This document shows, piece after piece, positions 15,021 to 45,139 of a DNA stretch of 64,000 nucleotides. Source of the stretch: Dakarella massiliensis. GTDB lineage: Bacteria; Pseudomonadota; Gammaproteobacteria; Burkholderiales; Burkholderiaceae_F. Location of the stretch: the NCBI RefSeq assembly GCF_001182045.1, contig NZ_CVTY01000006.1, forward strand, positions 186,001 through 250,000. Reading direction: 5' to 3'. The notes beneath the pieces are model-generated. The model had not been told where the DNA came from. It did not search any database and was given only the letters and a program-made list of their open reading frames with translations. Position 1 is the stretch's first letter. Each line of letters opens with the position of its first letter. A program made the translations under genes and the position numbers.

Positions 15021-15070
15021 CCTGAGGTGACCCGCCAATAAAAACAGGCGTTTTCGGGATTTTGAAAATC

Positions 15071-15086: not shown

Positions 15087-15099
15087 AGATCGAGGATAA

Positions 15100-16778
<1,679 letters not shown>

Positions 16779-25775: not shown

Positions 25776-27188
25776 ATGAAAAAGTCGCAGATCATCAAAA
25801 TCCTTGTGTGCTTCCTGCCGCTTCTCCTCCTTCTGCTTCCGGCTCCCGCCGGAATGAACCCCAAGGCATGGGAGCTCTTCCCCTTCTACGCGGGCGCGAT
25901 TCTCGGAATCATGCTGCATCCGTTTTCTGAAGCCGCCATTCTTCTCATCTTCCTCGGGTTCTATTCCGTCACGATGAAAGGCCAGGCCGTGGCGCTCTCA
26001 GGCTACGCGCTCGCGATGACCTGGCTCGTCGTCGGCGCCTTCGTGATCGCGCAGGCGTTCCGTGACACCCAGCTCGGGAAACGGATCGCCTATCACCTGA
26101 TCCGGATCTTTGGGCGATCCGCGATCGGGCTCGGCTACGCCGCGGCGTTTTCTGACTTCATCATCGCGCCGATGACCCCTTCGAACGCCGCTCGAACCGG
26201 CGGCATCATTTTCCCGATCTTCCGCTCGGTCGCGGAGACGCTCGGTTCCACCCCGGATCACAACCCGGAAAAGATCGGCGCCTATCTCTCGCAGCTCCTC
26301 TACATCATCACGATGGCGACCGGGATCACGTTCCTCACGAGTTACGCCGCAAACGGGGTCGCCTGGGCGATGACGGATCAGATCCTCGGGCTTCAGATCT
26401 CCTGGATCCAGTGGACGATCTCCTTTATCGTGCCGGCCGGTGTCGTGCTCCTCCTCGCGCCGCTCATCATTTATAAGATCTATAAACCCACAATCGGAAA
26501 GATCGATAACAAGCGGATCGCGGCGGAGGGTCTGAAGGACCTCGGCCCGATCTCAAGAAACGAAAAGATCCTTCTCGTTCTCTTCCTCCTCGCGATCATT
26601 CTGTGGTCAACTTCGTCCTACACCAAGATCAACTCCACCGCGGTGGTGCTCGCCTTCATCGCGCTCACGCTGCTCACCGGCGTCCTCAAGTGGAAGGACA
26701 TCGCGGTGAACGGTCAGATCTGGTCAACGCTCATCTGGTACGGCGGCATTCTCGGTATGGCCGGCGCACTCAATAAATTCCAGTTCTTTAACTGGCTCGC
26801 CGGGTGGCTCGAGACCTATATCGACTTCTCGTCCTTCAGCCACATCGGGCTTCTGATTACCCTTGTCTTCGCCGGCACCGCCTGCCGCTACCTCTTCGTC
26901 TCCTGCGGCGCGTATATGGCATCCGTCATTCCGGTGCAGTACACGATCGGTCTCGCGGCGGGGCTCCCCAAGATGGACATGTTCCTTGTCTTCGTGATGT
27001 GCGGCGTGATGGGTGCGTACGTCACCCACTACGCGAACGCCGCGGGCCCGGTGCTTTTCGGCGCTGGCTACGTCCCGCTTAAGAAGTGGTGGGCCACAGG
27101 GCTCTTCATGACACTCGTGAGCTACGTGATCTTCGCGCTCATCGGTGTGCCGTACTGGAAGATCCTCGGACTCTTCTCGTCCCTCTGA
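25776..27188 (+). CDS. DASS-family anion (di/tricarboxylate) transporter
   Basis: The 470-residue inner-membrane protein has about twelve helices. The first helix-hairpin signature APMTPSNAARTGGIIFPIF (about residues 131-149) corresponds to the SNT sodium/substrate motif of the DASS/CitT family. The second repeat ends with MGAYVTHYANAAGPVLFGAG. CitT-like members exchange citrate, succinate or tartrate. Exact substrate cannot be read, but a carboxylate fits the respiratory genes nearby. GGAG precedes the start. The upstream region carries an unusual operator cluster. Confidence 0.85.
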   Translation: MKKSQIIKILVCFLPLLLLLLPAPAGMNPKAWELFPFYAGAILGIMLHPFSEAAILLIFLGFYSVTMKGQAVALSGYALAMTWLVVGAFVIAQAFRDTQLGKRIAYHLIRIFGRSAIGLGYAAAFSDFIIAPMTPSNAARTGGIIFPIFRSVAETLGSTPDHNPEKIGAYLSQLLYIITMATGITFLTSYAANGVAWAMTDQILGLQISWIQWTISFIVPAGVVLLLAPLIIYKIYKPTIGKIDNKRIAAEGLKDLGPISRNEKILLVLFLLAIILWSTSSYTKINSTAVVLAFIALTLLTGVLKWKDIAVNGQIWSTLIWYGGILGMAGALNKFQFFNWLAGWLETYIDFSSFSHIGLLITLVFAGTACRYLFVSCGAYMASVIPVQYTIGLAAGLPKMDMFLVFVMCGVMGAYVTHYANAAGPVLFGAGYVPLKKWWATGLFMTLVSYVIFALIGVPYWKILGLFSSL

Positions 27189-27216
27189 GCCTTGAGCTTC
27201 CCTTAAACCGTACGTA

Positions 27217-27256
27217 AGAGCGGGATGCCGTTTTCATGGCACCCCGCTCTTTTCTT
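27217..27256 (+). terminator. Terminator after the DASS transporter
   Basis: AAGAGCGGG-TGCC pairs with GGCA-CCCCGCTCTT across a bulge, followed by TTCTTCTTT. Confidence 0.8.
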
Positions 27257-27882
27257 CTTTGCCCTTTTTGAACCCTCAAGCGGGCTGTTCAGGAGACTGG
27301 GGGCACTGATTTCGCCCCCGAATATTTTTCCACGTTATTCGTTATTGGAATAGCGACACTGAATAAAAAATACCGCGTCTTTTTTCACCAAAATGAGAAA
27401 TTCACCTTATAATTGGATTTTTGCCTATTTCTGCACCCAAAGTCGGCATCTGTCCTTAACAGTTTCTTAAATCCGGAAACCCGTACGACAAAAACCGCCA
27501 TAAGAATCGGATTAGTAGTGTTTTACTTCACCCAATAAAATACCTGTAACCCCCACAGCCTCTCAAAAATCTGTCACACGGCGTACCTACTTGTGAGATC
27601 AGATAAAAGTCGCATAAGTTCTTAAAAACGCTGTAATATCGGGCTATTGCGGAGAGGTAATCCCGTATTTGATCTATGCCAAAGATTATTGACATGAATC
27701 AGCAAATACCTATTTGGTGATAGTGGCCAAAGTTGATTTCTGGAATCACAAGTGATACATTGTAAATCGTTCAATTACCGAGAGAAATCACGGGCGTTGA
27801 ACATGGTTTTTACTCTGTGTGTCGGTCTAGGTCACTCTCATCCTGATTCTGCGTCGGTGAAGTGTAGACAAGATCAAATTTA
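27257..27882. other. Gene-free AT-rich region between convergent genes
   Basis: About 630 bp lies between the DASS terminator and the orphan terminator at 27884-27918, on a strand with no gene upstream. Its base composition is markedly more AT-rich than the neighbours. TTGACA at 27689-27694 is a full -35 consensus, but the -10 after it (TATTTG, 16 bp on) is weak. The longest plus-strand frame that ends here is 26 codons (27803-27883). A non-coding RNA, a very small protein or decayed mobile DNA are all possible. Confidence 0.4.
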
Positions 27883-27883
27883 G

Positions 27884-27918
27884 TGGAAGGCAGTTACATA
27901 ATTGCCTTCCATTTTTTT
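27884..27918 (+). terminator. Orphan strong terminator
   Basis: TGGAAGGCA (27884-27892) pairs perfectly with TGCCTTCCA (27903-27911) and is followed by seven T. No annotated gene precedes it on this strand for over 600 bp. In the opposite direction it would follow the response-regulator gene, but there its tail (CTAAATTT) is weaker. Confidence 0.85.
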
Positions 27919-27996
27919 ATCTGTGAAATTTCGGGTGAACAACCATTCAGCAAGGGTCCCGGCGCGTTCGGCGGCGGGAAACTCACCCCGACTCAA

Positions 27997-28632
27997 TTAC
28001 GCGTTCAGATAGCGCTCGATTTCGTCCGGATTCCGGACGCCAAGCTTCCGGATAATCGCCGCGCGGTGCACTTCGACGGTCCGCACCGTGATCCCAGTGC
28101 GCTCACTGATCTGGCGGTTCGTGAGCTTCTTCCCGATCAGTTCCGCGATTTCGCGCTCGCGGTCCGTGAGCTCCTGAACCTTCGCCCGGATCGCGCCTTC
28201 GGTTTCTACCGCCCCTGTCTCACTCACGCTCCGCGTCACGGCGCGCGCGATCGCTTTGAGAAGCCGTTCCTGACGCACGGGTTTCTGCACGAAATCCACC
28301 GCGCCGTCCCGCATCGCGCCCACCGCCATATCGATGTCACCGTTCCCGGTGAGGAAGATCACAGGGAGCGCGTACCCTCGGACATTCATTTCTTGCTGCA
28401 GCTCAAGCCCGCTCATCCCGGGCATCCGGACGTCGAGAATCGCGCAGCCAGGGGTGGACGGGGCGTCGTCTGTCAGAAACGCGCGGCCGTTTTCGTAGGT
28501 CTTCACATGCCACCCTTCCGCGGTCAGCATGAATTCCAGCGCTTCCCGCATCGCGGGGTTATCGTCCACGGTCCGGATGAGACACTTCGCCTTGATGTCA
28601 TCCGTGATTTCCGGGATCTCCGTATTCGCCAT
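27997..28632 (-). CDS. Response regulator, FixJ/TtrR type (REC plus LuxR HTH)
   Basis: The 211-residue protein has a receiver domain with the acidic pocket in TVDDNPAMREAL and the phosphoacceptor Asp in CAILDVRMPGMSGLEL (about residue 66). The conserved Thr/Ser and Lys are in VIFLTGNGDIDMAVGAM and DFVQKPV. A LuxR-type helix-turn-helix (about 145-205) carries LTDREREIAELIGKKLTNRQ and TGITVRTVEVHRAAII. This is the TtrR/FixJ subfamily. It pairs with the histidine kinase gene upstream on the same strand. A GGGCGCTC/GAGCGCCC hairpin (28681-28730) lies in the 166-bp gap between them. Confidence 0.92.
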   Translation of the reverse strand: MANTEIPEITDDIKAKCLIRTVDDNPAMREALEFMLTAEGWHVKTYENGRAFLTDDAPSTPGCAILDVRMPGMSGLELQQEMNVRGYALPVIFLTGNGDIDMAVGAMRDGAVDFVQKPVRQERLLKAIARAVTRSVSETGAVETEGAIRAKVQELTDREREIAELIGKKLTNRQISERTGITVRTVEVHRAAIIRKLGVRNPDEIERYLNA

Positions 28633-28798
28633 TTTTTCTCTCTCCTTATTTAGGCATCAGGCAGCGACCGCTTCCCCAAGGGGCGCTCCCCGGCGTTTTT
28701 CAGTTCAGGGAGCTCTCCCCTTGAGCGCCCGATTCTTTCTTTGAATCCGCGGCGGTTTCAGCTTTCACAAAACCTGCCGCCCGATCCGCCGGCTCTTT

Positions 28799-30643
28799 TT
28801 AATTTGGCTCGGCGGCATCGTCCCGCGGCTTCTTGTCATTTGAGTCCGCGGCTGGGAGGTGCACGTAGATCGTCACTCCCCGGACGCTCCCGTTCTCGAT
28901 CGAAAGCCGCCCGCCGTTCCGCTCCACGATCGACTTCACGATGAGGAGCCCAAGTCCGATCCCCTCGTGCTTCGAGCTCTTCAGGGCTCCCGACGGGTTC
29001 TCGATTTCGGCAAGCTGCTCCGGGGTCAGCGCCGGCCCGTTATCCGACACCGCGAGCAATGCTTTACCGGGGTTCGACGCGATGATAATCTCAACCACCC
29101 CGTCCGGCTGATCTTTTACGGCTTCCGCCGCGTTTTTAATGAGATTATAGGCGACGAGCTCCATTTCGAGCTGATCCGCGATAAGCGTCACCGCATTCGC
29201 GTCAGTGCGCTTAAACCGCACGCGGGATCCGGACGCGGAGCGGTACCCGGCAAGCGACCGGGTGACGACGTCGTTGAGTGATATCGGTTTCCGGTCGATA
29301 TCCTTTGCCCGGGCGTAGGCCCGCACGCGTTCCACGATGTCGCTCGCCCGCTCGGCCTGCGTTTCGAGTTTCCCAAGCGCCATCTCCATTTGGGATTCAG
29401 AGGCTTTCCCCCGCTTGATAAGCGACTTCATCCCCTGGGCGTAGAGCGAAATTGCGCCGAGCGGCTGCCGCATCTCATGCGCGAACACCGAGCAGAGCTG
29501 CCCGATGATCCCCATCTTCTCCATAAAGCTGATCTTCGCCGCGTCTTCGCGGGACTTCTCCTCGTACTCCTTCTGAATCCGGAGCGACTCCTGGAGCTGC
29601 GCCGTGCGGCGCTTCACGAGCACCTCGGTTCGGACACTGTGAAGGATGAGACCGAGGATCAGGAGGATCCCGATCAGGATCGCGCTCCAGTAGGTCATGA
29701 TGAAGCGACTGAGCGACCACTCTCTTAAATAGCGGTAGGGACCGATCTTGAGACCCTTGAAGAGCGCGTCAACGGACCGGAAGTCCGTCGCGATGCTCCA
29801 GTAGAAGCCGTCTTTCGTCGGCGGCATCTCGAGCACCGCGGATGTCACAATCTTTGAGATCTCGGGCGGCGTATTCGCGCTCGTGCCGATGGTCCACGTG
29901 GGATAGAGGTCGGTTGAACGCTGGCAGGGCTCGTTCGCGTCCCGCTGATCGATCACACGGAACAGCCCCTTATCCTCCGGATGCTTCTTCAGCCACCCCT
30001 CAAGCCAACAGATGCGGAGCGTGATGATGTCGACATCCTTCCGCCTCAGTGCGTCAAGGATCGAGACAGCGCCGGGGCCCCCGCCATAGAAGTTTGTTTT
30101 CTTGAAAAACGCTTCCGGGTCAAACCCCTGCCGCAGCACTTCGCCAAGCGCCAGCTGATACCCCGTGAACGCGGTGGGGGAGGAGGCCCCAAGGACCGAG
30201 CCCTTCGCGTCGTAAAGCGTCCGGATCCCGGAGTCATTCCGCACAATCAGCGCGGCGCCGTCACTGTGATTCGGGTCCGGGTAGTTTTTGGAGGCGACGG
30301 TCGCGAGCGAACTCGCGCCGTACTGCACCATGCGGCGGTAGAAGCCGCTTGACGCGAGGAACACATCCACGTCCCCGTTCTTGATCGCGTCCCGCAGCTG
30401 CTCCAGCGTGTACTCCTTGATCCGCAGATGCTGTTTCCCGATCCGCTTCTCAAGCGCCCGGATCGTGTCCGGAATGATCTCTTCGTTAGGGGACGGGCTT
30501 GTGTAATAGACGATCCCGAGCGTCACGTCCGGAATTGCTTCTCCGGCCACAGCGGCGCCCGCCGTTCCGGCCGCGAGGACCTGAAAAGCCGCTGAAATAA
30601 GGATCGCAGCAAAGGCTGTCCTGAGTTTGTGGGAACGTTTCAT
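28799..30643 (-). CDS. Sensor histidine kinase with PhnD-like periplasmic domain (TtrS type)
   Basis: The kinase has about 614 residues. A signal-anchor (FAAILISAAFQVLAAGTAGA) is followed by a periplasmic-binding-protein-like domain, about residues 35-300, with VTLGIVYYTSPSPNEEIIPD and DVDVFLASSGFYRRM, as in TtrS. One membrane helix (about 310-332, WSAILIGILLILGLILHS) leads to a coiled stretch, the H-box FAHEMRQPLGAISLYAQG with the phosphorylated His, the N-box NLIKNAAEAV, and the G-boxes VSDNGPALT and EGIGLGLLIVKSIV. I chose the ATG at 30643 over an in-frame TTG at 30679. The gene is divergent from the Tat aconitase gene, so its ligand may be a carboxylate handled there; tetrathionate remains possible. 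Confidence 0.9.
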   Translation of the reverse strand: MKRSHKLRTAFAAILISAAFQVLAAGTAGAAVAGEAIPDVTLGIVYYTSPSPNEEIIPDTIRALEKRIGKQHLRIKEYTLEQLRDAIKNGDVDVFLASSGFYRRMVQYGASSLATVASKNYPDPNHSDGAALIVRNDSGIRTLYDAKGSVLGASSPTAFTGYQLALGEVLRQGFDPEAFFKKTNFYGGGPGAVSILDALRRKDVDIITLRICWLEGWLKKHPEDKGLFRVIDQRDANEPCQRSTDLYPTWTIGTSANTPPEISKIVTSAVLEMPPTKDGFYWSIATDFRSVDALFKGLKIGPYRYLREWSLSRFIMTYWSAILIGILLILGLILHSVRTEVLVKRRTAQLQESLRIQKEYEEKSREDAAKISFMEKMGIIGQLCSVFAHEMRQPLGAISLYAQGMKSLIKRGKASESQMEMALGKLETQAERASDIVERVRAYARAKDIDRKPISLNDVVTRSLAGYRSASGSRVRFKRTDANAVTLIADQLEMELVAYNLIKNAAEAVKDQPDGVVEIIIASNPGKALLAVSDNGPALTPEQLAEIENPSGALKSSKHEGIGLGLLIVKSIVERNGGRLSIENGSVRGVTIYVHLPAADSNDKKPRDDAAEPN

Positions 30644-30679
30644 GGCATCAGTGTCAGATTGCTTACCCAGAAAGGACAA

Positions 30680-30731
30680 CCGCCGAATAGTCTTTTGACT
30701 GAAAACACACTACGTAGTGGTAGGTCGGCGG
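30680..30731. promoter_or_regulatory. Divergent promoter region with palindromes between kinase and aconitase
   Basis: CACTACGTAGTG (30708-30719) is a perfect 12-bp palindrome. It lies between CCGCCGA (30680-30686) and its inverted copy TCGGCGG (30725-30731). These are candidate sites for the TtrR-like regulator. Confidence 0.45.
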
Positions 30732-30855
30732 AACAATGTTCACCGTACTGAAGAGGTCTCAGAAACTTCTTCGGGCCTAGAAAACCAGAATCAAACCTGA
30801 AACCAACGTCCGGATTCCGAACTGCCATTCGAATTCCGGCCGAGGAGAGAACAAC

Positions 30856-33261
30856 ATGGAATCTCAGAATAAATTCCAGGTGTCCCGCCGTACCCTGCTC
30901 AAGGATACCGCGATCGGCGCCGCCGGTGTGTCGACGATGGGCATTGCGGATATCGCATCCGCTGCCACGAAGCAGTCTGCCAAGAAGGCTCACAAGGCTC
31001 CGACCGCCCAGATCCGCAACTTCGACATGATCGAAGCGTTCTACGCGAACTATCCGAAGAAGCTCGCCGCGGTCCGTTCGAAGCTGAACCGCCCGCTCAC
31101 CCTCTCTGAAAAGATCCTCTACACCCACCTCTACGATCCGGAAGCGGTGAAGGAATATAAGCGCGGCGCGTCTTACGCCGAATTCCGTCCGGACCGCGCC
31201 GGTACGCACGACATCGGCGGCCCGATGGCGATTCTCCAGTTCATGGTCTCCGGCAAGAAGAAGATTGCCCTCCCGGCCGCTATGGTCTGCGATCACCTCG
31301 TGACCGCGAACGCCGGCGCCCGTAAGGACATCGCCTTCGCTGACCACTACAACAAGGAAACGTACGACTTCCTGCGCACCGTGTCCCGCCGCTACGGCTT
31401 CGACTTCTGGCCCGCGGGTTCCGGCATCTGCCATCAGGTGTTCCTTGAGAACTACGATTTCCCGGGCGGCATGATGCTCGTCACCGACTCCCACACCCCG
31501 ACCGCCTGCGGTCTCGGCATGCTCGCGATCGGTGTCGGCGGCGCTGACCTCGTGGACGCTCTGATGGGTTCCGAGTGGGAACTCAAGATGCCGAAGCTGA
31601 TCGGTGTGAAGCTCACCGGTAAGCTCCAGGGCTGGGCCTCTCCTAAGGACGTCATCCTCCGCGTCGCTCAGATCCTGACGACGAAGGGCGGCACGAACTG
31701 CATTATTGAATACTTCGGTGACGGCGCGAACACCATCTCCGCGACCGGCAAGGCGACGATCGGCAACATGGGCGCTGAAGTCGGCTCCACGACCTCCGTC
31801 TTCCCGTATGACTCCCACATGAAGGCTTACCTGAAGGCCACGAACCGCGAAGCGGTGGCGGACCTCGCTGACGGTGTCGCGAAGGACCTGCAGGCGGACC
31901 CCGAAGTCTATGCTCACCCGGAGAAGTACTTTGACCGCGTGATTGAACTGAACCTCTCGGAACTTAAGCCCCTCATCAACGGCCCGCTCTCTCCGGATGC
32001 CGCGATGGAACTTGACCAGGTCGGTGACACGCTCGCGAAGAAGAACATTCCGGAAAATATCGAAGTCGCTCTCGTCGGCTCCTGCACGAACTCTTCCTAC
32101 GAAGACTTCACCCGCGCCGCTTCGATCGTGAAGCAGTGCCTCGATAAGGGCGTGAAGATCAAGACGCCGCTGATCGTCGTTCCGGGCTCTGTCCGCATTC
32201 GTGAGACCCTGAAGCGTGACGGCATTCTGCAGCAGTTTGAGAAGCTGAACGCCACCGTGATGACCACCGCCTGCGGCCCCTGCATCGGCCAGTGGGATCG
32301 TCACATCGGCGATAAGACGAAGGTGAACACGATCATCGAGTCCTTCAACCGCAACTTCGCCGGCCGTAACGACGGCAGCAAGAAGACCCAGGCTTTCCTC
32401 GCGTCTCCTGAAATCGTGGTCGCGATGGCAATCAACGGCGATATGCGCTTCAACCCGCTGAAGAGCACGGTGACCGGCGCGAACGGCATTTCCTTCAAGC
32501 TCGCGACTCCGGTCGGTGAGGAACTCCCGGCTAAGGGCTTTGCCACGAACGTCGGCGGCTGCATCATCCCGGACTTCAAGCAGGTCCCGGTTGTGGTGGC
32601 TCCGAACGCCGAGCGTATCCGCCTCCTCACCCCGTTCCCGGCCTGGAACGGCAAGGATTACGTCGATCTCCCGCTGCTGATTAAGGCGAAGGGTAAGTGC
32701 ACGACGGACCACATCTCCCCCGGGGGCAAGTGGCTTCCGTACCGCGGCAACATCGACCGGATTTCCGATAACCTCCTCGAACGCGCGACGAACGCCTTTA
32801 ACGGCAAGAGCCAGAGCGTCTGGAACGTGGTGAACAAGGACTACGAGTCCCCCGCGAAGACCGCCCGCCTCTATAAGAACAAGGGCATCCAGTCGATCAT
32901 CGTCGGCGACGATAACTACGGTGAAGGTTCTTCCCGTGAACACGCCGCCATGGAACCGCGTTACCTCGGCGTCGTGGTGGTGCTCGCGAAGAGCCTCGCC
33001 CGAATCCACGAGTCCAACCTGAAGAAGCAGGGCGTCCTCGCGCTCACCTTCGTGGACCCGAAGGATTACGACAAGATCCGTGAGAAGGACCGCATCTCGG
33101 TCCTCGGCCTCTCCCAGATCGCTCCGGGGAAGACGGTGACGATCGTCTGCAAGCATGAGGACGGCACCGAAGACCGCTTCCAGGCTCAGCATTCGTATAA
33201 CGCGAAGCAGCTCACCTGGTTCCGCGCCGGTTCCGCGATGAACGCTCTCGGCAAGGCCTAA
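30856..33261 (+). CDS. acn: Aconitate hydratase with a twin-arginine (Tat) signal peptide
   Basis: The 801-residue aconitase interconverts citrate, cis-aconitate and isocitrate. Residues 1-38 form a Tat signal: VSRRTLLKDTAIGAAGVSTM, then a cleavage site after ASA. The start is certain because GAGGAGAG lies six bases before the ATG. The mature part is a full mitochondrial-type aconitase. The [4Fe-4S] ligands are Cys410 (GSCTNS), Cys473 and Cys476 (ACGPC), with the 63- and 3-residue spacing of the bovine enzyme. DHL, DSHTPT, GSVRIRETLKRDG and the catalytic GEGSSREHAA are all intact. Tat export of the folded cluster enzyme to the periplasm is implied. Codon use resembles the porin, suggesting high expression. 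It is divergent from a TtrS-like kinase and followed by a strong terminator. Confidence 0.93.
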   Translation: MESQNKFQVSRRTLLKDTAIGAAGVSTMGIADIASAATKQSAKKAHKAPTAQIRNFDMIEAFYANYPKKLAAVRSKLNRPLTLSEKILYTHLYDPEAVKEYKRGASYAEFRPDRAGTHDIGGPMAILQFMVSGKKKIALPAAMVCDHLVTANAGARKDIAFADHYNKETYDFLRTVSRRYGFDFWPAGSGICHQVFLENYDFPGGMMLVTDSHTPTACGLGMLAIGVGGADLVDALMGSEWELKMPKLIGVKLTGKLQGWASPKDVILRVAQILTTKGGTNCIIEYFGDGANTISATGKATIGNMGAEVGSTTSVFPYDSHMKAYLKATNREAVADLADGVAKDLQADPEVYAHPEKYFDRVIELNLSELKPLINGPLSPDAAMELDQVGDTLAKKNIPENIEVALVGSCTNSSYEDFTRAASIVKQCLDKGVKIKTPLIVVPGSVRIRETLKRDGILQQFEKLNATVMTTACGPCIGQWDRHIGDKTKVNTIIESFNRNFAGRNDGSKKTQAFLASPEIVVAMAINGDMRFNPLKSTVTGANGISFKLATPVGEELPAKGFATNVGGCIIPDFKQVPVVVAPNAERIRLLTPFPAWNGKDYVDLPLLIKAKGKCTTDHISPGGKWLPYRGNIDRISDNLLERATNAFNGKSQSVWNVVNKDYESPAKTARLYKNKGIQSIIVGDDNYGEGSSREHAAMEPRYLGVVVVLAKSLARIHESNLKKQGVLALTFVDPKDYDKIREKDRISVLGLSQIAPGKTVTIVCKHEDGTEDRFQAQHSYNAKQLTWFRAGSAMNALGKA

Positions 33262-33726
33262 GCCACCTGCCGAAAGCCTTGAGACCGCCCCTCCTTCTCT
33301 CCCTCTGAGAGGCGGTCTCGTAAATCTCCCATAACGGCTTGTTGGATGGATCCGAGGAGTTCTCTCCTGCCCCGGTTCCATCCATTTTTTTGTCTTCACA
33401 TTCCGGAATCCCGAATAAAGCAAAAGGCCTGCGGTATGAATCGCGAGCCTTCTTTTTGCCGGATGGGTGTCATACCACCGTCCCTTGCCTTCACGGATGG
33501 GTAAGCCCCCGTCCGTTCCTTAAACATACCGAATCGCCCATCCAAAATCAATCCGAGCTGACGATCCACGTCTCCCGGGATTCGGGCCGCGCGGGCAAAA
33601 AAAAGGAGCTTATCGAAATTGCTCTGATAAGACTCCTTCGGACGGTGCCTGGAAGGCTGTAGGAGAGGTCCTCCAGGTCGCCGGTCGTTCCCAAACTCTG
33701 GATCCGGAACCCCGGATCGGAATGCT
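33262..33726. other. Intergenic region after the aconitase gene
   Basis: It contains a hairpin GAGACCGCC/GGCGGTCTC (33281-33319) without U-tract and the terminator at 33343-33391. Nothing is supported in the remaining 330 bp. Confidence 0.5.
33343..33391 (+). terminator. Aconitase terminator
   Basis: TGGATGGA (33343-33350) pairs with TCCATCCA (33377-33384) and is followed by seven T. Confidence 0.85.
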
Positions 33727-34203
33727 TTACACGCCGTACACGCGGGTTTCTTCCGTCACCGTTTCGATGACGGGTTCCGGAGTCCCCGGCTTCACCACAC
33801 GCTCACTGATCTGCTCTTCCGTAATAATGAGACGGCGGCGGTCGCAGATCACGCGGGCTTCTTCACGGAGAAGCGAAATGAGGTGCTTCATTTCGCCTTC
33901 GCTCCGGGCGCGAGCCTCAATCTTCACTTCGACGCGGGTCGGGCCGCAGCTGAGCGGCACCCCGGTGTCACCAAGCGACACCACGTGCGCCTCAGCGCCC
34001 CAGATCGCCTGGGCGGCGGTTTCGACCCGGAGAATGAGCTCCGCCGCGCCGCTGATCGCGGCACCCGCCTCGGGCGCTTTCCCCTGAGTCTCAGTATTCG
34101 GTTCAATCACAAAAGCCACCCGGCGCGTCACGGGGGCGTCCGACCGGGGGTCGAACGTCAGCACGGATTTCACGCGCGATAGCACTTTCTGTCCAAATGC
34201 CAT
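33727..34203 (-). CDS. Hypothetical protein
   Basis: The 158-residue protein matches no family I recognise. It starts MAFGQKVLSRVKSVLTFD and is soluble, without signal peptide or membrane segment. The middle is Ala-rich (about residues 40-65), and a charged helix near 105-125 (SEGEMKHLISLLREEARVI) precedes a terminal strand region rich in Val/Thr/Glu (VIETVTEETRVYGV). GGAGGAG just before the start codon supports real translation. It stands alone between the aconitase and a hydrolase on the other strand. Confidence 0.6.
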   Translation of the reverse strand: MAFGQKVLSRVKSVLTFDPRSDAPVTRRVAFVIEPNTETQGKAPEAGAAISGAAELILRVETAAQAIWGAEAHVVSLGDTGVPLSCGPTRVEVKIEARARSEGEMKHLISLLREEARVICDRRRLIITEEQISERVVKPGTPEPVIETVTEETRVYGV

Positions 34204-34629
34204 TTCAGTTCTCCTCCAGAATTCAGCTTTTTCGCCGCGCGGAGAAAGCCCCTAAGTGCTTTCTTCAGCGCTAATTTCGATTCTAACTGCCGGAATCTTT
34301 TTGCCAATAAGGCATTGTGATTAAAAGGAATTGCTTAGAAAAAAGAAGCATTTCTGCGTACCTGAGGCGACAGAAACGTTCCCATCTTGGGACTCCGATC
34401 CGGCGCACTGAAAAAGGTGTTCTCCCCGCACTTTGGGATCCTTCCCCCTGTTGCTGTCAAAACCGCGCGGAAGCCCGGCCGCTTTCTTTCCCTTTTTCCC
34501 CTGACTTACAATTAAGAGCGAACAGCGAATCTGGCACCGAAGTAATCAAACGCATATCTACAGGAGAGCCTGGCCGTGAGGATCAGACTCCCGCCGAACG
34601 CGGTACCCGAATCAAAGGACGGATCCTCA
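34204..34629. other. Intergenic region between divergent genes
   Basis: 425 bp with no supported gene or clear promoter. A short plus-strand open frame (34317-34715) overlaps the start of the next gene and has no family content. Confidence 0.4.
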
Positions 34630-35610
34630 ATGAGAACAATGAAAATGGTGGGAAAGGACTGGGTATTTCCGGAGTTTGTCCTCTGGCAGAGTCAGCTTCT
34701 GAAGATCCGGCGTGATTTCCACGCGCATCCCGAACTCGGTTTCCGGACACACCGGACAGCGAAACGGATCGCGGACACCCTGCTCCGGTTCGGTGTCCGT
34801 CACATTGATCTGAAATCCGTCCCAGGGGGTGTCATCGCGGTTATCAATCGCCGCCGACCTGTCATGTTCCCCGACGACAAGTGGGAAAGCATGCAGCCCG
34901 TTATCGCGCTTCGAGCCCGGATTGACGCGTCTCCGGTGACGGAACGAAACGACATCTTTTACCGCAGCCGGAATCCGGGAGCCGCTCACACCCAGGGGCA
35001 CGACGGCGAAATAGCCTGGCTTCTCGGGGTCGCCCGGAATTTCGCGCACGACACAAAGCTTGGAAATTCGACCCTCGTTCTGATTTTCGAACCCGGTTCT
35101 GAAACCGGCGGCGGGGCGGACGCGGTAATCAATTCGGGAATTTTTGAGAAATACGGAATTGAGACGATTTTCGGGGTCTGCGCGGATCCGACGCTCCCCA
35201 TGGGGACCTATGGGTTTACAGCCCCGGAACCGGGTGCAACGCCGGGTTCAGCTTCCGGCGGCAATGATCCGGAACGGGTCGGATACGCGCGCGATCTGAT
35301 TAACGATCTATTCACCGATGCCGCAAGGACAGATCTTCTGCCGCTCCCCGTGCCGGACGATTTCTCCCGGTATCAGAGTATCGTGCCCGGCATCATGCTT
35401 CGGTTCGGTGTCCGCGGCCCCAAACATCAGACATCGCTCGGGAGCCCGGAATTCGACTTCAATGATTCCGTTCTTCCGATTGTCTGTTCACTCACCGGCG
35501 GCTACGTCATGACCCTCCGGCAGGGCTGGTACGAAAGTCCGGCGTTGTATGAAATTTACTATACGGTGGTGTGGTACGACTGCCAGCAGTTTTACCCATT
35601 CAGAAGATAG
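34630..35610 (+). CDS. M20-family amidohydrolase relative, degenerate and shortened
   Basis: The protein has about 326 residues. Its start matches M20D amidohydrolases of the HipO/IAA-amino-acid hydrolase type: RRDFHAHPELGFRTHRTAKRIADTL is nearly canonical over its length. The metal-site motif is altered: where HACGHDGHT is expected it reads HTQGHDGEI, so the Cys and last His ligands are gone. The catalytic Glu-Glu region reads EPGSETGGGA, and the following His is missing (FGVCAD). The dimerisation lid domain is largely absent. It is probably not an active hydrolase. Start at 34630 has AAAGGACGG before it; GTG at 34576 is an alternative. Confidence 0.65.
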   Translation: MRTMKMVGKDWVFPEFVLWQSQLLKIRRDFHAHPELGFRTHRTAKRIADTLLRFGVRHIDLKSVPGGVIAVINRRRPVMFPDDKWESMQPVIALRARIDASPVTERNDIFYRSRNPGAAHTQGHDGEIAWLLGVARNFAHDTKLGNSTLVLIFEPGSETGGGADAVINSGIFEKYGIETIFGVCADPTLPMGTYGFTAPEPGATPGSASGGNDPERVGYARDLINDLFTDAARTDLLPLPVPDDFSRYQSIVPGIMLRFGVRGPKHQTSLGSPEFDFNDSVLPIVCSLTGGYVMTLRQGWYESPALYEIYYTVVWYDCQQFYPFRR

Positions 35611-35667
35611 AAAGCCCGGAGAAAAAGGCACGGTTCATCGCAAGCCGCGCCTTTTCCTTCAGATCGA

Positions 35668-36465
35668 TCAAAAGACGAGAACTTCGCCGTCCGCCGGGAT
35701 CAGCGCGCGGCGCGGATCCATCCCGAGGCGCTGCGTGAGGAGCCGGAGCTCCGGACGATGGAGCACGCAGTGGTTGAAGCCATCCATGTGAACCGCGACG
35801 ATCGCGGCGTCCGGCGCCTCACGGTAGGCGCGGATAAAGTCGGGACCGCCCATGATGATCGAGCTGCTCCACTCAGCCATCATCGCGTTTCCGGTGTTGA
35901 GAACGATGACACCGGGCTTAAATTTCTTAATGCGCTCGGACACCTCAGGAATCCAGACCGTGTCCCCCACCACGTAAACCGTCTTGCAGCCTTCGCGCTC
36001 AAAAATCACGCCCATCGGATGACCGAGGAAATCTCCCATGTAGCTATTCAGGATCTCTTCCGACCCGTGGTTGCCGTTCGCGCGGAAAAGCGTGACGCCC
36101 TTAAACACCTCACCATCCTGCATCACGCGGACATTCGTAAAGCCATCCGCCTCAACCTGGCCGCGCTCTTCTTCGTTATTCACGAAGATCAGGTGATCCT
36201 TCGGCACCACCCGGCGGGCTTCATCATCCCAGTGATCAACGTGCGTGTGGGTGAGAATGATCGCGTCGCACTTCAGCACTTCCTCAACCGGGAACGGCAG
36301 CTCCACCATCGGGTTCCGCTGAGACATGTTCATCGATTCCGGAAAACCGGAAAAGGCCCCCTTCTCAGCCAGCATCGGGTCGATCAGAAACGTTGTGCCG
36401 CCAAGCGACACCTTGATCGTGGCGCTGCGGATCAGCTGCACCGTGCTGCATTCATGAATGGCTTT
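35668..36465 (-). CDS. Metallo-beta-lactamase-fold hydrolase, copy 1
   Basis: The protein has about 265 residues and the fold of UlaG/YtkL-like metal-dependent hydrolases. The metal-binding HxHxDH is visible as THTHVDHWDD (about residues 74-83), and further ligands are likely in RANGNHGSEE and VVGDTVW. The start at 36465 has AAGGAG before it; extension to 36543 lacks support. It is about 85% identical by eye to the gene at 37705-38514, and the two flank a regulator gene. The substrate is unknown; cytosolic. Confidence 0.85.
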   Translation of the reverse strand, partial: KAIHECSTVQLIRSATIKVSLGGTTFLIDPMLAEKGAFSGFPESMNMSQRNPMVELPFPVEEVLKCDAIILTHTHVDHWDDEARRVVPKDHLIFVNNEEERGQVEADGFTNVRVMQDGEVFKGVTLFRANGNHGSEEILNSYMGDFLGHPMGVIFEREGCKTVYVVGDTVWIPEVSERIKKFKPGVIVLNTGNAMMAEWSSSIIMGGPDFIRAYREAPDAAIVAVHMDGFNHCVLHRPELRLLTQRLGMDPRRALIPADGEVLVF

Positions 36466-36570
36466 CATTGTCGTTAATCTCCTTGATAGTTTTTTAATTC
36501 CCGCGGAGCGGTTTTCTCCGCCTCCGCTTTCCATGAAAACCATCCTACGGACGCGCGGCTGTGACCGTGA

Positions 36571-36608
36571 TAAGGTAAATTGACAGCTAACGATGGATTT
36601 CTGCCATT
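36571..36608. promoter_or_regulatory. Duplicated promoter/operator block, copy 1
   Basis: This block, centred on GACAGCTAACGATGGATTTC, lies between MBL copy 1 and the divergent GlxA-type regulator. It recurs almost unchanged at 38618-38653 upstream of MBL copy 2. TTGACA at 36580-36585 could be a -35 box. Confidence 0.55.
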
Positions 36609-36623
36609 TTGGATTTCTGACTC

Positions 36624-37649
36624 ATGACGCCTTATGACCTTCCGCTTCCGGATGTGGATCCGCTGCCGCCGGCTCACCCCGCGCGCCGCGCCGCGGTCAT
36701 TGTGACCCCCGGAACCATCACGTATCTCCTGTCGATCCCGTGGCTTGTCATGCAGACGCTGCCGCCTGAGAAGCACCGGCGGCTTGTCACGCTCTGCGCT
36801 GAGGAGCCCGGGAACATCCGGGCGCTCGGCGGCTTTGATGTGCCGGTGTCAGCCGGGCTTGAAGCGCTGGATGACGCGGATACCGTCCTGATGCCGCACT
36901 GGACGGATCCCGGGAAGGTACCCTCCCCCGCGCTGATCGGGGCGCTTCAGAAAGCGGCGGATGACGGAAAGGAAGTGGCGGGACTGTGTCTCGGCGCATA
37001 CCCGCTCGCCTACGCCGGCATTCTTGACGGCCACCGGGCTGTCACCCACTGGCGTTTCGCGCGGGACTTCCGGGCACGGTTCCCCCGCGTGAAGCTCGAT
37101 CCCAAGGCGCTTTATATCGATGACCGGATCCGAATTACGTCTGGCGGCATCGCGGCCGGCAACGACTGCTGTCTTTACCTCTTCCGAAAGCATGAGGGCG
37201 CGGCCGCGGCGAACGACGTCTCCCGCAATATGCTGATTCCGCCGGTGCGGGACGGAGGCCAGGCGCAGTATATCGATGAGCCGCTCGCCCGTACCACACC
37301 GTCCGCGCGCCTCAACCTCGCGATGCGATACGCCGAGGAGCATCTAAGAGAAGAAATATCCGTGGAGACTCTCGCGCGTGTCGCCTCGATGTCCCCGCGG
37401 AACTTCGCGCGGAGCTTCAGGAAGTTCGCGGGCGAGACCCCCGCCGCCTGGCTCCGCATCCTGAGACTCCGGAAAGCGGAGGAGCTCCTGGAAACCACCG
37501 ATCTTCCGATCGCCGTGATCGCGGAGGACACCGGGTTCCAGTCCCCGGTCACCTTCCGGCAGGCCTTTCAGGCCGCGAAGGCAGTGTCGCCGCAAAGCTA
37601 CCGGAAGACCTTCCAGGCAGAGGAAACAGGGGCTGAGAGCGAAGCATAA
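36624..37649 (+). CDS. GlxA-type regulator (DJ-1/PfpI domain plus AraC HTH)
   Basis: The 341-residue protein has an N-terminal DJ-1/PfpI-like domain (about residues 25-200). The nucleophile-elbow region reads VAGLCLGAYPLAYAG, with Cys in the expected place, and is followed by AVTHWRFARDFRARFP, as in GlxA/FtrA. The C-terminal double helix-turn-helix contains ISVETLARVASMSPRNFARSF and the signature IAEDTGFQSPVTFRQAF. It sits between two copies of a metallo-hydrolase gene whose promoters share a 36-bp block, so it probably regulates both. No ribosome-binding site is evident. Confidence 0.88.
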   Translation: MTPYDLPLPDVDPLPPAHPARRAAVIVTPGTITYLLSIPWLVMQTLPPEKHRRLVTLCAEEPGNIRALGGFDVPVSAGLEALDDADTVLMPHWTDPGKVPSPALIGALQKAADDGKEVAGLCLGAYPLAYAGILDGHRAVTHWRFARDFRARFPRVKLDPKALYIDDRIRITSGGIAAGNDCCLYLFRKHEGAAAANDVSRNMLIPPVRDGGQAQYIDEPLARTTPSARLNLAMRYAEEHLREEISVETLARVASMSPRNFARSFRKFAGETPAAWLRILRLRKAEELLETTDLPIAVIAEDTGFQSPVTFRQAFQAAKAVSPQSYRKTFQAEETGAESEA

Positions 37650-37704
37650 AAATTCCCGGGCATCGCGGGAGGATGTCCGGGAACGTTCTTTTCTCTTCAG
37701 GAGA

Positions 37705-38514
37705 TCAGAAGACCAGCACTTCGCCGTCCGCCGGAATCAGCGCGCGGCGCGGATCCATCCCAAGGCGCTGCGTAAGCATGCGGAGCTCCGGACGGTGGAG
37801 CACGCAGTGATTCACGGCATCCATGTGAACCGCAACGATCGCGGCGTCCGGCGCCTCACGGTAAGCGCGGATAAAGTCGGGGCCGCCCATGATGATTGAC
37901 GTCGCCCAGTCAGACATCATGGCGTTACCGGTGTTAAGCACGATGACACCCGGCTTGTACTTCTGAATGCGTTCGGAAACTTCCGGAATCCAGACCGTGT
38001 CTCCCACCACGTAAACCGTCTTGCAGCCTTCACGCTCAAAAATCACGCCCATCGGGTGACCGAGCAGATCGCCCCAGACACCGTCACTCAGGATCTCGTC
38101 AGACCCATGATTGCCATTCGCGCGGATGAGGGTTACGCCCTTAAAGACTTCACCATCCTGCATCACGCGGACATTCGTGAAGCCCGCGTCCTGGACCTGA
38201 CCAAGTTCAGCGTCGTTATTCACGAAGATCAGCTTATCCTTCGGCACCACGCGGCGGGCATGCGCGTCCCAATGGTCTTCATGCGTGTGGGTCAGAATGA
38301 TCGCGTCGCACTTCAGAATCTCTTCAACCGGAAGCGGCAGCTCAACGGTCGGATTGCGCTGCATCATGTTCATCGATTCCGGGAACCCCGGAAACTCGCC
38401 CTTGTCGGACAGCATCGGGTCAATCAGGAACGTCGTCCCGCCAAGCGACACCTTGATCGTGGCGCTGCGGATCAGCTGAACCGTGCTGCATTCGTTGATG
38501 GCTTTCATCGTCAT
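37705..38514 (-). CDS. Metallo-beta-lactamase-fold hydrolase, copy 2
   Basis: The 269-residue close paralogue of the gene at 35668-36465 has THTHEDHWDA as the metal motif and the same C-terminus (DPRRALIPADGEVLVF). GAGGAG seven bases before the first ATG (38514) supports that start. Differences cluster on the surface (for example VWGDLLGHP against MGDFLGHP), and the metal residues are intact in both. A duplicated upstream block at 38618-38653 indicates that the promoter was copied with the gene. Confidence 0.85.
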   Translation of the reverse strand: MTMKAINECSTVQLIRSATIKVSLGGTTFLIDPMLSDKGEFPGFPESMNMMQRNPTVELPLPVEEILKCDAIILTHTHEDHWDAHARRVVPKDKLIFVNNDAELGQVQDAGFTNVRVMQDGEVFKGVTLIRANGNHGSDEILSDGVWGDLLGHPMGVIFEREGCKTVYVVGDTVWIPEVSERIQKYKPGVIVLNTGNAMMSDWATSIIMGGPDFIRAYREAPDAAIVAVHMDAVNHCVLHRPELRMLTQRLGMDPRRALIPADGEVLVF

Positions 38515-38617
38515 TTTTATTCTCCTCAGTCTCTGTTTTTAACGGCTCACGAGGGAAACACTTCTCCCCGTCGGCACCGTGAAAGCCATACTAAGGACGC
38601 GCCAAAAGAGGCATGAC

Positions 38618-38653
38618 AAGGTAAATGACAGCTAACGATGGATTTCTGCCATT
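38618..38653. promoter_or_regulatory. Duplicated promoter/operator block, copy 2
   Basis: Near-identical to 36571-36608 apart from one missing T (GTAAATGACAG against GTAAATTGACAG). It lies upstream of MBL copy 2. The gene that follows copy 1, the regulator, is absent here. Confidence 0.55.
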
Positions 38654-38738
38654 CTGAATTTTGACTCTAAGTCCGTTTTGAATCAGAAAAGGAAAGCGCC
38701 TTCCCTGGGCCTAACTGAGACGCCCGGAGATCCGGCGT

Positions 38739-39920
38739 TCAGGACGCAGCCGCGCGGGCCGCGGCAAAGAACCTCACCGCTTCCGCCGCGGTACGGCGGA
38801 GGTTATCTTTCGCGGTTTCGGGGTCCATCGCGGAGGCCTCAGTCGCGGGAGTCCCGATAATCGGGAAGAAGGCGTCAATCCCAAGCGCGTGGATCGTTTC
38901 AGGGCGCTCTCCGATCGAGCCGCAGAGTTCCACCGCGACGCACTTTGGATTCAGCCGCTTCAGGAACCGGGCAGCGCCCGCGGGCGCTTTCCCCCGCGCG
39001 GTCTGGGAGTCGAGCCGTCCTTCGCCCGTAATGAAGAGATCGGCGTCCGTGAGGTTTTTGGAGGCTCCGATCGTTTGGAGCACAAGATCCGTGCCGGACA
39101 CGAGTTCCGCGCCAAGCGCCGTTCGGAACGCGAACCCGAGGCCGCCTGCCGCGCCGGCCCCTGGCGCTTCCGCGGCATTTTCTGTCCCCATCTGAGTCTC
39201 AATCAATCGCGAAAAACGGCCGATCGCCTCATCCATTTCGGCAAGCATATCAGGCGTCCCGCCTTTCTGAGGACCGAAGACAAAAGAGCAGCCGTTTTCG
39301 CCGCAGAGCGGATTCGTGACATCGCACGCGACGCGAAAGTGGCACCCGCGGGTGAGCTTTAATAGCTCACCGAGATCCGCCTCCGTAACCCGCTTCACAT
39401 CGTCCCCGGTTCCGCCGACAAGTTCCCCGTTTTCATCAAAAAAGCGCGCTCCGAGTGACTCCATCATCCCAAGCCCGCAGTCGTTTGTCGCGCTCCCGCC
39501 GATCCCGATCACAAAGTCCTTGATCCCCCGCGTGATCGCGTGCCGGATCAGGTCACCGAGCCCGGCCGTCGTGGTCTTCCGGGGGTTCCGGAAATACGCC
39601 GGCACCTGCGTGAGACCCGCGGCGTCCGCGGCTTCAATCAGCGCGGTAACGCGGGGCGTACCCGATTCATCCGCGACACAGACCATCCCGTACGAGCTTT
39701 CAACGGGGGTCCCAAGCGGCCCCCGGACCACCACAGGCACCATTTCGCCGCCCAGCGCGTTCACGATAGCGGATACCGTACCTTCGCCGCCGTCCGCGAG
39801 CGGCATCAGGATGAGGTCAGCGTCAGGGAGGGCGTCCGTCGCCCCTTTCGCCGCGGCCTCTCCCGCCTCCAGAGAAGTAAGCGACCCTTTAAACGAATCC
39901 ATCGCGATCACGATTTTCAT
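38739..39920 (-). CDS. garK: Glycerate 2-kinase (GarK/GlxK family)
   Basis: The 393-residue enzyme phosphorylates D-glycerate with ATP to 2-phosphoglycerate. The family start MKIVIAMDSFKGSLTSLEAG and LMPLADGGEGTVSAI are diagnostic, and GIGGSATNDCGLGMMESLGA (about residues 139-158) is the conserved glycine-rich block. Length is normal. It lies 38 bases after the SGNH-like gene on the same strand, so the two may be co-transcribed. The GlxA-type name of the nearby regulator is only a domain label, not proof of a glyoxylate pathway. Confidence 0.92.
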   Translation of the reverse strand: MKIVIAMDSFKGSLTSLEAGEAAAKGATDALPDADLILMPLADGGEGTVSAIVNALGGEMVPVVVRGPLGTPVESSYGMVCVADESGTPRVTALIEAADAAGLTQVPAYFRNPRKTTTAGLGDLIRHAITRGIKDFVIGIGGSATNDCGLGMMESLGARFFDENGELVGGTGDDVKRVTEADLGELLKLTRGCHFRVACDVTNPLCGENGCSFVFGPQKGGTPDMLAEMDEAIGRFSRLIETQMGTENAAEAPGAGAAGGLGFAFRTALGAELVSGTDLVLQTIGASKNLTDADLFITGEGRLDSQTARGKAPAGAARFLKRLNPKCVAVELCGSIGERPETIHALGIDAFFPIIGTPATEASAMDPETAKDNLRRTAAEAVRFFAAARAAAS

Positions 39921-39958
39921 AGTCCAGCAACTCCTTCTCTTATTTTTTCAGGCGGAGA

Positions 39959-40795
39959 TCAGGCTTTGGTGCCTGTTGACCCTTTGCGGCTCGGGGACTG
40001 AAGCGGGCGGTCAAAGAACCGGACCGCCGTTTTATGCGCGATCTCGCGGAGAATCATCGCGGTCTCGGGGGTGAGATCGCAGTCCTCACTCACGCGCCGC
40101 ACGTTGACCCCGAAAACGGATTCGAGGATCACGGCGGCGAGGAGATAGCTCCCTTCCCGCGTCGGGTGACGCTTATCCTCGATCGTCAGCGGAATCGTCG
40201 GCGCGAATTTCTCCGCCTCGGCGAACGCGAGACCGGCGGGGACCGCCATCGCGTGATTCGCGTTCGCGACGGTCAGCACCGCGTCCGCGATCTGCTCCGT
40301 CATCTCAGGGCGGTCGGCGTACGCCCAAGTGATCATGAAGATCGGCTCAGTCCCGTGAGAGCGCGCGATCGCGGCGTCCCGCGCCGCGGTTTCGATAAAA
40401 CGGTCCCGCAGATCCGGATGAATCGGTCCCTGGGTGCTGTCGCAGAAAATCACGGCGTCCCAGAGCTTTTTCTGCGGCTCACGCCAGACAAGGCGGTTCG
40501 TGCCGTCGTTCTTGATCGCGTAGGACGCGACCGCGTCAGTCCGGAAATAGCTTTCGAGATCGTGCCAGTAGAGGCTCGCCCCGCCGATCGCGATGAGGTT
40601 CGTGCGGCAGGCAACCTTCGGGTCCGCTCCGGCAAGGAGCTTCCGCACAAAGCGGTGAACGCCGTTATTGAAAAAGAAAAGCGAATTCCCGACAAACAGC
40701 AGTGACTCAGGCGCCGGGATCTTCGTGATCTCAGGCTGTACGTGATGCGGCAGACCGGTTTCGGGGTTCCGGTACGGAACGAAAGTGGTTGTCAT
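39959..40795 (-). CDS. SGNH/GDSL-like hydrolase-fold protein
   Basis: The protein has about 278 residues. The block-I like LLFVGNSLFFFNNGVHRFV gives G-N-S where GDSL enzymes have the nucleophile Ser. AIGGASLYWHDLESYF supplies the block II Gly, and the C-terminal KRHPTREGSYLLAA supplies the His of block V. This resembles the DUF4886/SGNH group. There is no signal peptide, so it is probably cytosolic. I chose the ATG at 40795; an in-frame GTG at 40825 is less likely. Substrate is unknown. It is probably an operon partner of glycerate kinase. Confidence 0.65.
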   Translation of the reverse strand: MTTTFVPYRNPETGLPHHVQPEITKIPAPESLLFVGNSLFFFNNGVHRFVRKLLAGADPKVACRTNLIAIGGASLYWHDLESYFRTDAVASYAIKNDGTNRLVWREPQKKLWDAVIFCDSTQGPIHPDLRDRFIETAARDAAIARSHGTEPIFMITWAYADRPEMTEQIADAVLTVANANHAMAVPAGLAFAEAEKFAPTIPLTIEDKRHPTREGSYLLAAVILESVFGVNVRRVSEDCDLTPETAMILREIAHKTAVRFFDRPLQSPSRKGSTGTKA

Positions 40796-43078: not shown

Positions 43079-43087
43079 CCGCGCTCT

Positions 43088-43120
43088 GCCGCCCGGCCGA
43101 GAGTCCGGGCGGCGCTTTAC
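43088..43120 (+). terminator. Hairpin after the cytochrome gene
   Basis: GCCGCCCGG (43088-43096) pairs with CCGGGCGGC (43105-43113). The following GCTTTACTC is only weakly U-rich. Confidence 0.5.
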
Positions 43121-43235
43121 TCTCTCCCTCCCTGTCTTCCCGGGAGCGGACACGCTTCAGCTGCCCGGTCACTCTCCGCCGGCAGGTCCTGAAGCGGAGA
43201 AGCGCCTTAAGCGCTGGATGGCAGTCCAGACCGTC

Positions 43236-44983: not shown

Positions 44984-45139
44984 GACTGGAAGGAATATAG
45001 AAAACCTATCGGAAATCTTCTTATAGCACCGGTTGCCGTTCAGGCAATAAAAAACCGCGCCGATGGTTTGACCCAGCGGCACGGCCGACTCTTCAGAGAA
45101 TCCGCGGTGCACTCACGCCGCGGATTCTTTCCTTCTGAA

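Follow-up and report, generated by a model that had tools for sequence, protein, structure and literature searches.

A Tat-tagged aconitase-family hydro-lyase of Dakarella massiliensis and a possible periplasmic dehydration and reduction module

The aconitase gene and its product

We analyzed a 64,000-nucleotide stretch of the Dakarella massiliensis genome (contig NZ_CVTY01000006.1, positions 186,001 to 250,000; hereafter, the window), which carries a gene for an aconitase-like protein opening with a twin-arginine translocation (Tat) leader. Textbooks place aconitase in the cytosol or the mitochondrion. From the evidence of its sequence and that of its relatives we infer, with good support, that the window protein is exported by the Tat pathway; below, we consider what such an enzyme could do outside the cytoplasm. 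The gene, which belongs to the first of two types of Tat-tagged aconitase described here, has the following features.

30856-33261, + strand: putatively exported aconitase-family hydro-lyase of type 1, 801 residues, ATG start (TIGR01340, PF00330, PF00694 and phmmer match to 5acn)
30843-30848, + strand: Shine-Dalgarno sequence AGGAGA, ending 7 nt before the ATG at 30856 (5/6 match to AGGAGG)
30856-30963, + strand: predicted Tat leader, residues 1-36, with an SRRTLLK motif and an ASA site (read by eye from motif, hydropathy and conservation)
32083-32283, + strand: span of the [4Fe-4S] ligands from Cys410 to Cys476 (Cys410, Cys473 and Cys476, from the alignment to pig aconitase)
31207-31209, + strand: codon of His118, the equivalent of pig Gln72 (changed in 12/12 type-1 proteins)

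Residues 63-798 matched the aconitase_mito model TIGR01340 at 928.9 bits, above its cut-off of 825.35; both PF00330 and PF00694 were also matched, and phmmer scored the protein at 834.8 bits against pig heart aconitase (5acn). Cys410, Cys473 and Cys476 align with pig Cys358, Cys421 and Cys424, and the GEGSSREHAA motif is present, in agreement with the original prediction, made from the sequence alone, of a mitochondrial-type aconitase. Approximately 60 residues precede the aconitase domain. They start with MESQNKFQVSRRTLLKDTAIGAAGVSTMGIADIASAATKQ and comprise a charged start, SRRTLLK, a mildly hydrophobic stretch and ASA; the leader itself reads MESQNKFQVSRRTLLKDTAIGAAGVSTMGIADIASA-ATKQ, with the ASA site after residue 36. 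The ribosome-binding site, earlier described as perfect, is present and good, but AGGAGA matches AGGAGG at only five of six positions.

Comparison with an 85% relative (L030) gave a nonsynonymous divergence (dN) of 0.109 and a synonymous divergence (dS) of 0.833, indicating purifying selection on the window gene. Its effective number of codons is 32.1, the third lowest among 23 window genes measured. The heavy expression predicted from codon bias is compatible with this value, but the bias is not special to the aconitase gene. No structural RNA was found at positions 27000-45000, nor any tRNA across the window.

Conservation of the leader and the case for export

Our family survey of 67 genomes identified 15 full-length aconitases with a Tat leader in 12 genomes, including those of Sutterella wadsworthensis and Duodenibacillus massiliensis; the search for further enzymes of this kind, which the original prediction had recommended, was thus productive. 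Twelve of the 15 proteins are of type 1 and three of type 2. Conservation of the leader in relatives, on which the predicted export had been staked, was also observed: SRRxLL stands in 14/15 leaders, and in the fifteenth (L039) SRR is visible and the remainder is unreadable. In an alignment of 13 of these proteins, 52-99% identical to the first (L039, whose leader is not fully readable, and L031, near-identical to L030, were omitted), S10, R11, R12, L14 and L15 are invariant. Since SRR.LL is unchanged in relatives down to 52% identity, the leader is not a product of chance. Additionally, dN between the window gene and L030, 0.109 for the gene as a whole, reaches 0.315 in the first 50 aligned codons, which indicates that SRRxLL was retained while the remaining leader drifted.

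At the ATG of the leader, AGGAGA is found in 12/15 homologues, and the other three show a 4/6 match. Among codons 20-110 of the 14 genes examined, no internal ATG or GTG has a Shine-Dalgarno match of at least 5; a second, cytosolic product from an internal start was rejected on this ground. The genome encodes TatC (PF00902, 226.9 bits), and the window protein has the S/T-R-R-x-hydrophobic-hydrophobic motif, h-region and A-x-A site of a Tat substrate, as judged by motif and hydropathy alone.

For comparison outside the family, we considered the best 80 of 561 confirmed relatives in named genomes. Seventy-six of these come from outside the family, mostly from Bacteroidota, and the RR-x-hydrophobic-hydrophobic pattern occurs at the N-terminus of none of the 76; the other four are family proteins again, the D. 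massiliensis (G011) and S. wadsworthensis DSM 14016 proteins among them. In a survey of the class, an aconitase of this type (E up to 1e-150) was present in 8 of 368 other genomes, and no Tat-like leader was read in these eight relatives.

Aconitases and citrate synthase in the family

Four PF00330 proteins are encoded in the genome that carries the window (G000; 98.8% complete, 2.48 Mb): two LeuC-type proteins, the window aconitase and a second aconitase at C6:555591-557948; no third aconitase was found there. The second, cytosolic enzyme that the original prediction proposed to look for is not what this genome holds, as its second aconitase likewise opens with a Tat leader, MPVSVSRRSLLKASGLTAAAVS. 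A search for citrate synthase, with a control positive in 13/14 genomes, found none in this genome. Its sole Iso_dh (PF00180) match adjoins leuCD and was taken as LeuB, and no isocitrate dehydrogenase of the Iso_dh family was found; monomeric isocitrate dehydrogenase, isocitrate lyase and citrate lyase were not searched.

Nine of the 12 Tat-aconitase genomes, among them G055 at 79% completeness, gave no citrate synthase match, and none of the nine yielded a long AcnA. The remaining three, G011, G014 and G017, have a match. Duodenibacillus massiliensis (G011) combines citrate synthase with a separate, leaderless AcnA; in G014 and G017 (87-88% complete), citrate synthase is present, and no full aconitase besides the Tat enzyme was found. 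AcnB (PF11791) was found in 0/67 family genomes, with a control positive in E. coli only. That citrate synthase implies a separate AcnA proved only partly true, AcnA being present in four of nine citrate-synthase genomes (G011, G016, G018 and G019) and not found in the other five (G013, G014, G017, G053 and G052, the last with a 144-residue fragment). In most of the Tat-aconitase bacteria, the Tat enzyme is the sole aconitase found, with no citrate synthase feeding it.

These distributions bear on the idea that the leader does not export and that the protein works in the cytosol as a normal aconitase whose N-terminus is unusual. The gene content of G014 and G017 fits this idea; the retention of SRRxLL in a drifting leader, the Shine-Dalgarno sequence at the leader's ATG in 12/15 with no good internal one, the nine genomes in which no citrate synthase was found as a feeder, and the separate AcnA of D. 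massiliensis all oppose it. We consider it very improbable, and export of the protein remains our reading.

Linked flavin reductase and cytochrome

In all four type-1 loci of the Sutterella group (g16), the next downstream frame on the same strand encodes a Tat-leader reductase of the FAD_binding_2 family. The gap between aconitase and reductase is approximately 0.2-0.4 kb in three of these loci and approximately 1.8 kb, with two opposite frames, in the fourth; a small protein with 3-4 CXXCH motifs follows the reductase. In S. wadsworthensis DSM 14016, the reductase occupies L036:7602-9077. Two type-2 loci, those of G000 and G045, carry a cytochrome and a same-clade reductase close to the aconitase, on the far side of the sensor kinase. 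The genome that carries the window has 49 FAD_binding_2 matches, 36 of them above 100 bits, and our reductase trees included 28 of its reductases (limited to complete frames at fetched loci). In these trees, a paralogue at C4:54897-56384, itself accompanied by a cytochrome, groups with the type-1-linked and type-2-linked reductases in one clade (100/98). That one small clade is linked twice, to both aconitase types, seems unlikely to be due to chance. Orthologues of the linked reductases (E up to 1e-180) were found in 11/12 Tat-aconitase genomes, G014 being the one without.

The window itself contains a related module, downstream of the aconitase.

41253-42743, + strand: Tat flavin reductase (FAD_binding_2), in a sister subclade to the linked reductases (from the tree)
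42740-43078, + strand: small cytochrome c with four CXXCH motifs, whose ATG overlaps the reductase stop (read from sequence)

As a direct partner of the window aconitase this reductase was set aside, since the tree groups it with two other paralogues. Many FAD_binding_2 proteins of the same genome start with RR or Sec-like leaders; an adjacent multihaem cytochrome was examined for three.

At the second aconitase locus (L005:5667-12958, on contig C6 of G000), the regulator is split and the sensor kinase has an in-frame stop; the flavin reductase is approximately 26 residues shorter than in G045, and the aconitase is intact and conserved (dN 0.002 vs dS 0.22). Three related proteins of approximately 350 residues with Sec-like starts surround the locus (L005:4070-5134, 13187-14218 and 14520-15581); the two that were scanned have no Pfam match.

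A putative two-step respiratory module

The reading that we favor, with a probability a little above one half (approximately 55%), is a periplasmic two-step respiratory module in which a citrate-like acid is dehydrated and its product then reduced. The [4Fe-4S] hydro-lyase would be folded and loaded with its cluster in the cytoplasm and then exported by Tat. Citrate or isocitrate would enter the periplasm, where the Tat aconitase would dehydrate a citrate-like hydroxy-acid, most likely one of these two, to an aconitate-type unsaturated acid. The Tat flavin reductase would saturate the double bond of this acid as a terminal electron acceptor, with electrons passing from quinol through the small multihaem cytochrome c; if citrate is the substrate, the product would be tricarballylate, which would leave the cell. 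The aconitase would act upstream, converting further acids into substrates for a reductase that also occurs in family members lacking the aconitase: the linked reductase may use aconitate from food directly, and the aconitase would add citrate. Expression of the gene would probably be induced by the acid through a divergent TtrS/TtrR-like pair, described below. The weakest step of this explanation is which substrate is used.

Several observations weigh against it. The reductase linkage is absent in 8/12 type-1 loci, including that of the window (5/5 loci of genus g1 and 3/3 of genus g4), and at the third type-2 locus there is no reductase upstream, the contig ending 1.4 kb downstream. Orthologues of the linked reductases also occur in 20/55 genomes without a Tat aconitase; the reductase is therefore independent of the aconitase, and the co-occurrence of the two is confounded by ancestry. 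In D. massiliensis (G011), the flavin reductase just upstream on the same strand (L033:6855-8621, 589 residues) comes from another clade and has FccA-like residues, so the link to the reductase clade is not general. A chicken-caecum proteome, in the available part of the report, attributed tricarboxylic acid (TCA) cycle enzymes, including aconitate hydratase, to Campylobacter alone and reported none for Sutterella massiliensis, the gene content of that strain being unchecked (PMC11204068). The second aconitase locus of our genome looks decayed, through either recent decay or an assembly error, and the two citrate-synthase genomes that yielded no full aconitase besides the Tat enzyme (G014 and G017) count on the same side.

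The residues of the reductases add to these points. In place of His365, Arg402, His504 and Arg544 of FccA, which we take to be its key residues by name and role, the linked clade has Gly, Tyr, Thr and Tyr, and five of its members score 240-252 bits on TIGR01813, short of the cut-off of 285. With these positions replaced, the idea that the partner from the linked clade is a fumarate reductase was rejected. The TcuA model NF006130 (cut-off 369) gives 218-233 bits for five linked-clade members and 225-234 for three unlinked members of the wider clade, which share the Thr/Tyr; as a fumarate-reductase-like control also reaches 195, this score discriminates poorly. One family genome encodes a true TcuA (725 bits), which shares Thr504 and Tyr544 with the linked clade; in the tree, where its row is truncated at the N-terminus, it branches beside the whole ten-row clade on a long branch (support 83/85). 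We regard the likeness to TcuA as weak evidence of the chemistry.

The sister of the D. massiliensis reductase in the genome of the window is L046.

Active site and substrate pocket

All 15 exported proteins keep the residues at pig positions 100, 101, 147, 148, 165-167, 258, 262, 358, 421 and 424, as well as 446, 447, 452 and 642-644; the three cluster cysteines and Asp100, His101, Asp165, His167 and Ser642 are accordingly present in 15/15. The enzyme had been described as intact, which is correct for the cluster and catalytic residues but not for the substrate pocket, where His118 occupies the position of pig Gln72. In type 1, His replaces Gln72 in 12/12 proteins within a rebuilt loop (GTHDIGGP instead of AMQDATAQ), Thr replaces Asn170 in 12/12, and Arg580 is kept in 12/12. 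In type 2, Val replaces Arg580 in 3/3, and position 72 is Glu, Glu or Gln. Both Gln72 and Arg580, which presumably contact substrate carboxylates, are present in all 76 leaderless relatives outside the family (of the best 80 of 561). Neither exported type has this pair, and for this reason we use the label aconitase-family hydro-lyase, with a putative aconitase activity on citrate. The available part of PMC8184944 mentions neither Gln72 nor Arg580.

Since the pocket differs from that of an ordinary aconitase (Q72H), citrate is a proposed substrate. The pocket changes are our main reservation over naming the activity aconitase and would bear on the acid used; the type-1 change Q72H and the type-2 change R580V could point to a different substrate, a further point to be set against the two-step reading as worded above. 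An exported hydro-lyase and flavin reductase could instead act on another hydroxy-acid (citramalate-, isopropylmalate- or alkylmalate-like), types 1 and 2 differing in substrate. The consistency of the replacements within each type and their occurrence in 0/76 relatives agree with such a substrate, as does the His found at the Gln72 place in 11/20 LeuC-type proteins (the other nine, a second LeuC-type group, have Asn). The reductase clade without the FccA residue set and the long stem branches of both types, described below, point the same way. However, type 1 keeps Arg447, Arg452, Arg580, Ser643 and Arg644 (pig numbering), which we take to be tricarboxylate-binding residues, and we judge this alternative rather unlikely. 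Citrate or isocitrate stays the substrate that we propose for the two-step module.

The second LeuC-type group, with Asn at the Gln72 place instead of the His of classical LeuC, is exemplified by L002 (G000:C5:220027-221385; HFANEYTSPQAF), with similar ones among L208-L216. In LeuD of the same genome, the position aligned to R580V of type 2 is Thr, the alignment being uncertain.

Neighboring regulators and transporter

Upstream of the aconitase, profile matches identified three genes.

28799-30679, - strand: TtrS-like sensor histidine kinase with a periplasmic PF12974 domain, divergent from the aconitase
27997-28632, - strand: FixJ/TtrR-like response regulator
25776-27188, + strand: DASS-family (PF00939) anion transporter, 3.7 kb upstream of the aconitase

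The sensor kinase is the divergent next gene in 7/12 type-1 loci, lies approximately 5 kb off in S. wadsworthensis and is not in the fetched stretch at 4/12. The pair has the same PF12974 periplasmic sensor domain and FixJ/TtrR-like regulator as the tetrathionate pair TtrS/TtrR, with scores far below the NCBIfam cut-offs of the latter (216.2 of 750 and 169.4 of 290 bits).

Within the fetched stretches, the DASS transporter lies near the aconitase only in our genome and in G045; it was consequently rejected as a fixed partner and is perhaps unrelated to the aconitase. The copy in G045 (L029:14979-16388) is split into two frames, and that of the window is whole. The proximity of this gene would suit periplasmic citrate scavenging, in which isocitrate or cis-aconitate would be made outside and imported by the transporter for carbon. 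Such a role is at odds with the restriction of the neighborhood to two genomes, in one of them with a broken frame, and with the failure to find citrate synthase or an Iso_dh-family isocitrate dehydrogenase in the genome; it also leaves the reductase linkage unexplained. We hold scavenging to be improbable. A respiratory role, as in the two-step module, is the likelier, because a flavin reductase and a cytochrome adjoin the aconitase in some relatives.

Origin of the exported clade

A tree of 47 proteins was built with 27/76 of the non-family relatives and 5/8 of the class relatives, one class row being poorly trimmed and L039 omitted; its midpoint root served for drawing only. A branch (100/97) separates the exported aconitases from all other rows; types 1 and 2 are each supported at 100/100 and have long stem branches, and the exported clade lies inside a group whose other 13 rows are all Bacteroidota (100/99). 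The nearest relatives outside the family, among the best 80 of 561, are leaderless Bacteroidota aconitases at 54-59% identity. One transfer, one leader gain and one duplication would explain the clade, the direction being a matter of inference. It is possible, and we suggest it tentatively, that gut Sutterellaceae acquired a cytosolic Bacteroidota aconitase, which was Tat-tagged and duplicated, that it serves the periplasmic dehydration of citrate or a relative and reduction to tricarballylate, hydroxy-acids lacking a double bond thereby becoming terminal electron acceptors, and that types 1 and 2 allow the respiration of two distinct hydroxy-acids.

Relation to known systems

With mitochondrial-type aconitase (TIGR01340; 5acn), the window protein shares a whole-length match, the cluster cysteines and the catalytic residues; exported type 1 differs in its Tat leader, in the change of Gln72 to His with an altered loop, and in a genome where no citrate synthase was found. 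The leaderless, presumably cytosolic Bacteroidota aconitases, among which the exported clade lies, are the closest proteins outside the family and differ by a start without RR and by the presence of Gln72 and Arg580. Aconitases have been placed outside the cytoplasm before: AcnB in a study of the Acinetobacter baumannii periplasm, which included it from an earlier publication (PMC6679007), and a Pseudomonas syringae aconitase by an in silico call (PMC6110883). The available parts of these two reports state no Tat leader, citrate synthase loss or linked reductase (PMC6679007, PMC6110883).

An exported FAD_binding_2 flavoprotein with a cytochrome c donor is shared with FccA, urocanate reductase and the Geobacter methacrylate reductase Mrd/Mcc, the last being described, in the part of the report available, as a flavin reductase of the periplasm partnered by a multihaem cytochrome (PMC4427408). 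Unlike in the FccA-type systems, a dehydratase would precede the reductase here, and the four FccA residues are replaced. TcuA of the Salmonella TcuABC system shares Thr504 and Tyr544 with the whole ten-row clade and presumably runs its C=C chemistry in the opposite direction, converting tricarballylate to cis-aconitate, the reverse of the reaction proposed here; the linked reductases differ from it in scoring below its cut-off, in their predicted export and in their link to a cytochrome.

Among the titles and abstract starts listed for the open-licence literature, which lacks most subscription papers, none describes an aconitase exported by Tat, a reductase acting on aconitate or a dehydratase ahead of a respiratory reductase; exact-phrase queries gave no match. 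The component parts are of known kinds; the Tat-tagged aconitase and the dehydratase placed before a reductase were not found described, which is not proof of novelty.

To our knowledge, the substrates of periplasmic flavin reductases already contain a double bond. With a dehydratase before the reductase, the acceptors would extend to hydroxy-acids without one, such as citrate, a common constituent of food. If our reading is correct, a TCA-cycle enzyme can be relocated outside the cytoplasm to prepare electron acceptors, and the Tat system would carry a cargo with a labile, substrate-exposed [4Fe-4S] cluster. The reading also names candidate genes for tricarballylate, a gut-microbial metabolite. 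According to the available part of one report, gut microbes make this compound from trans-aconitate and, to a lesser extent, from cis-aconitate, citrate and isocitrate, and it has been measured in human plasma (PMC3885560).

Other genes of the window

Two beta-lactamase-fold proteins, approximately 87% identical (35668-36543 and 37705-38514), lie on either side of an AraC-type regulator that has a DJ-1/PfpI domain. Additionally, a nitrate-reductase-beta-like iron-sulphur protein and a molybdopterin oxidoreductase at 59994-63914 form a further respiratory module.

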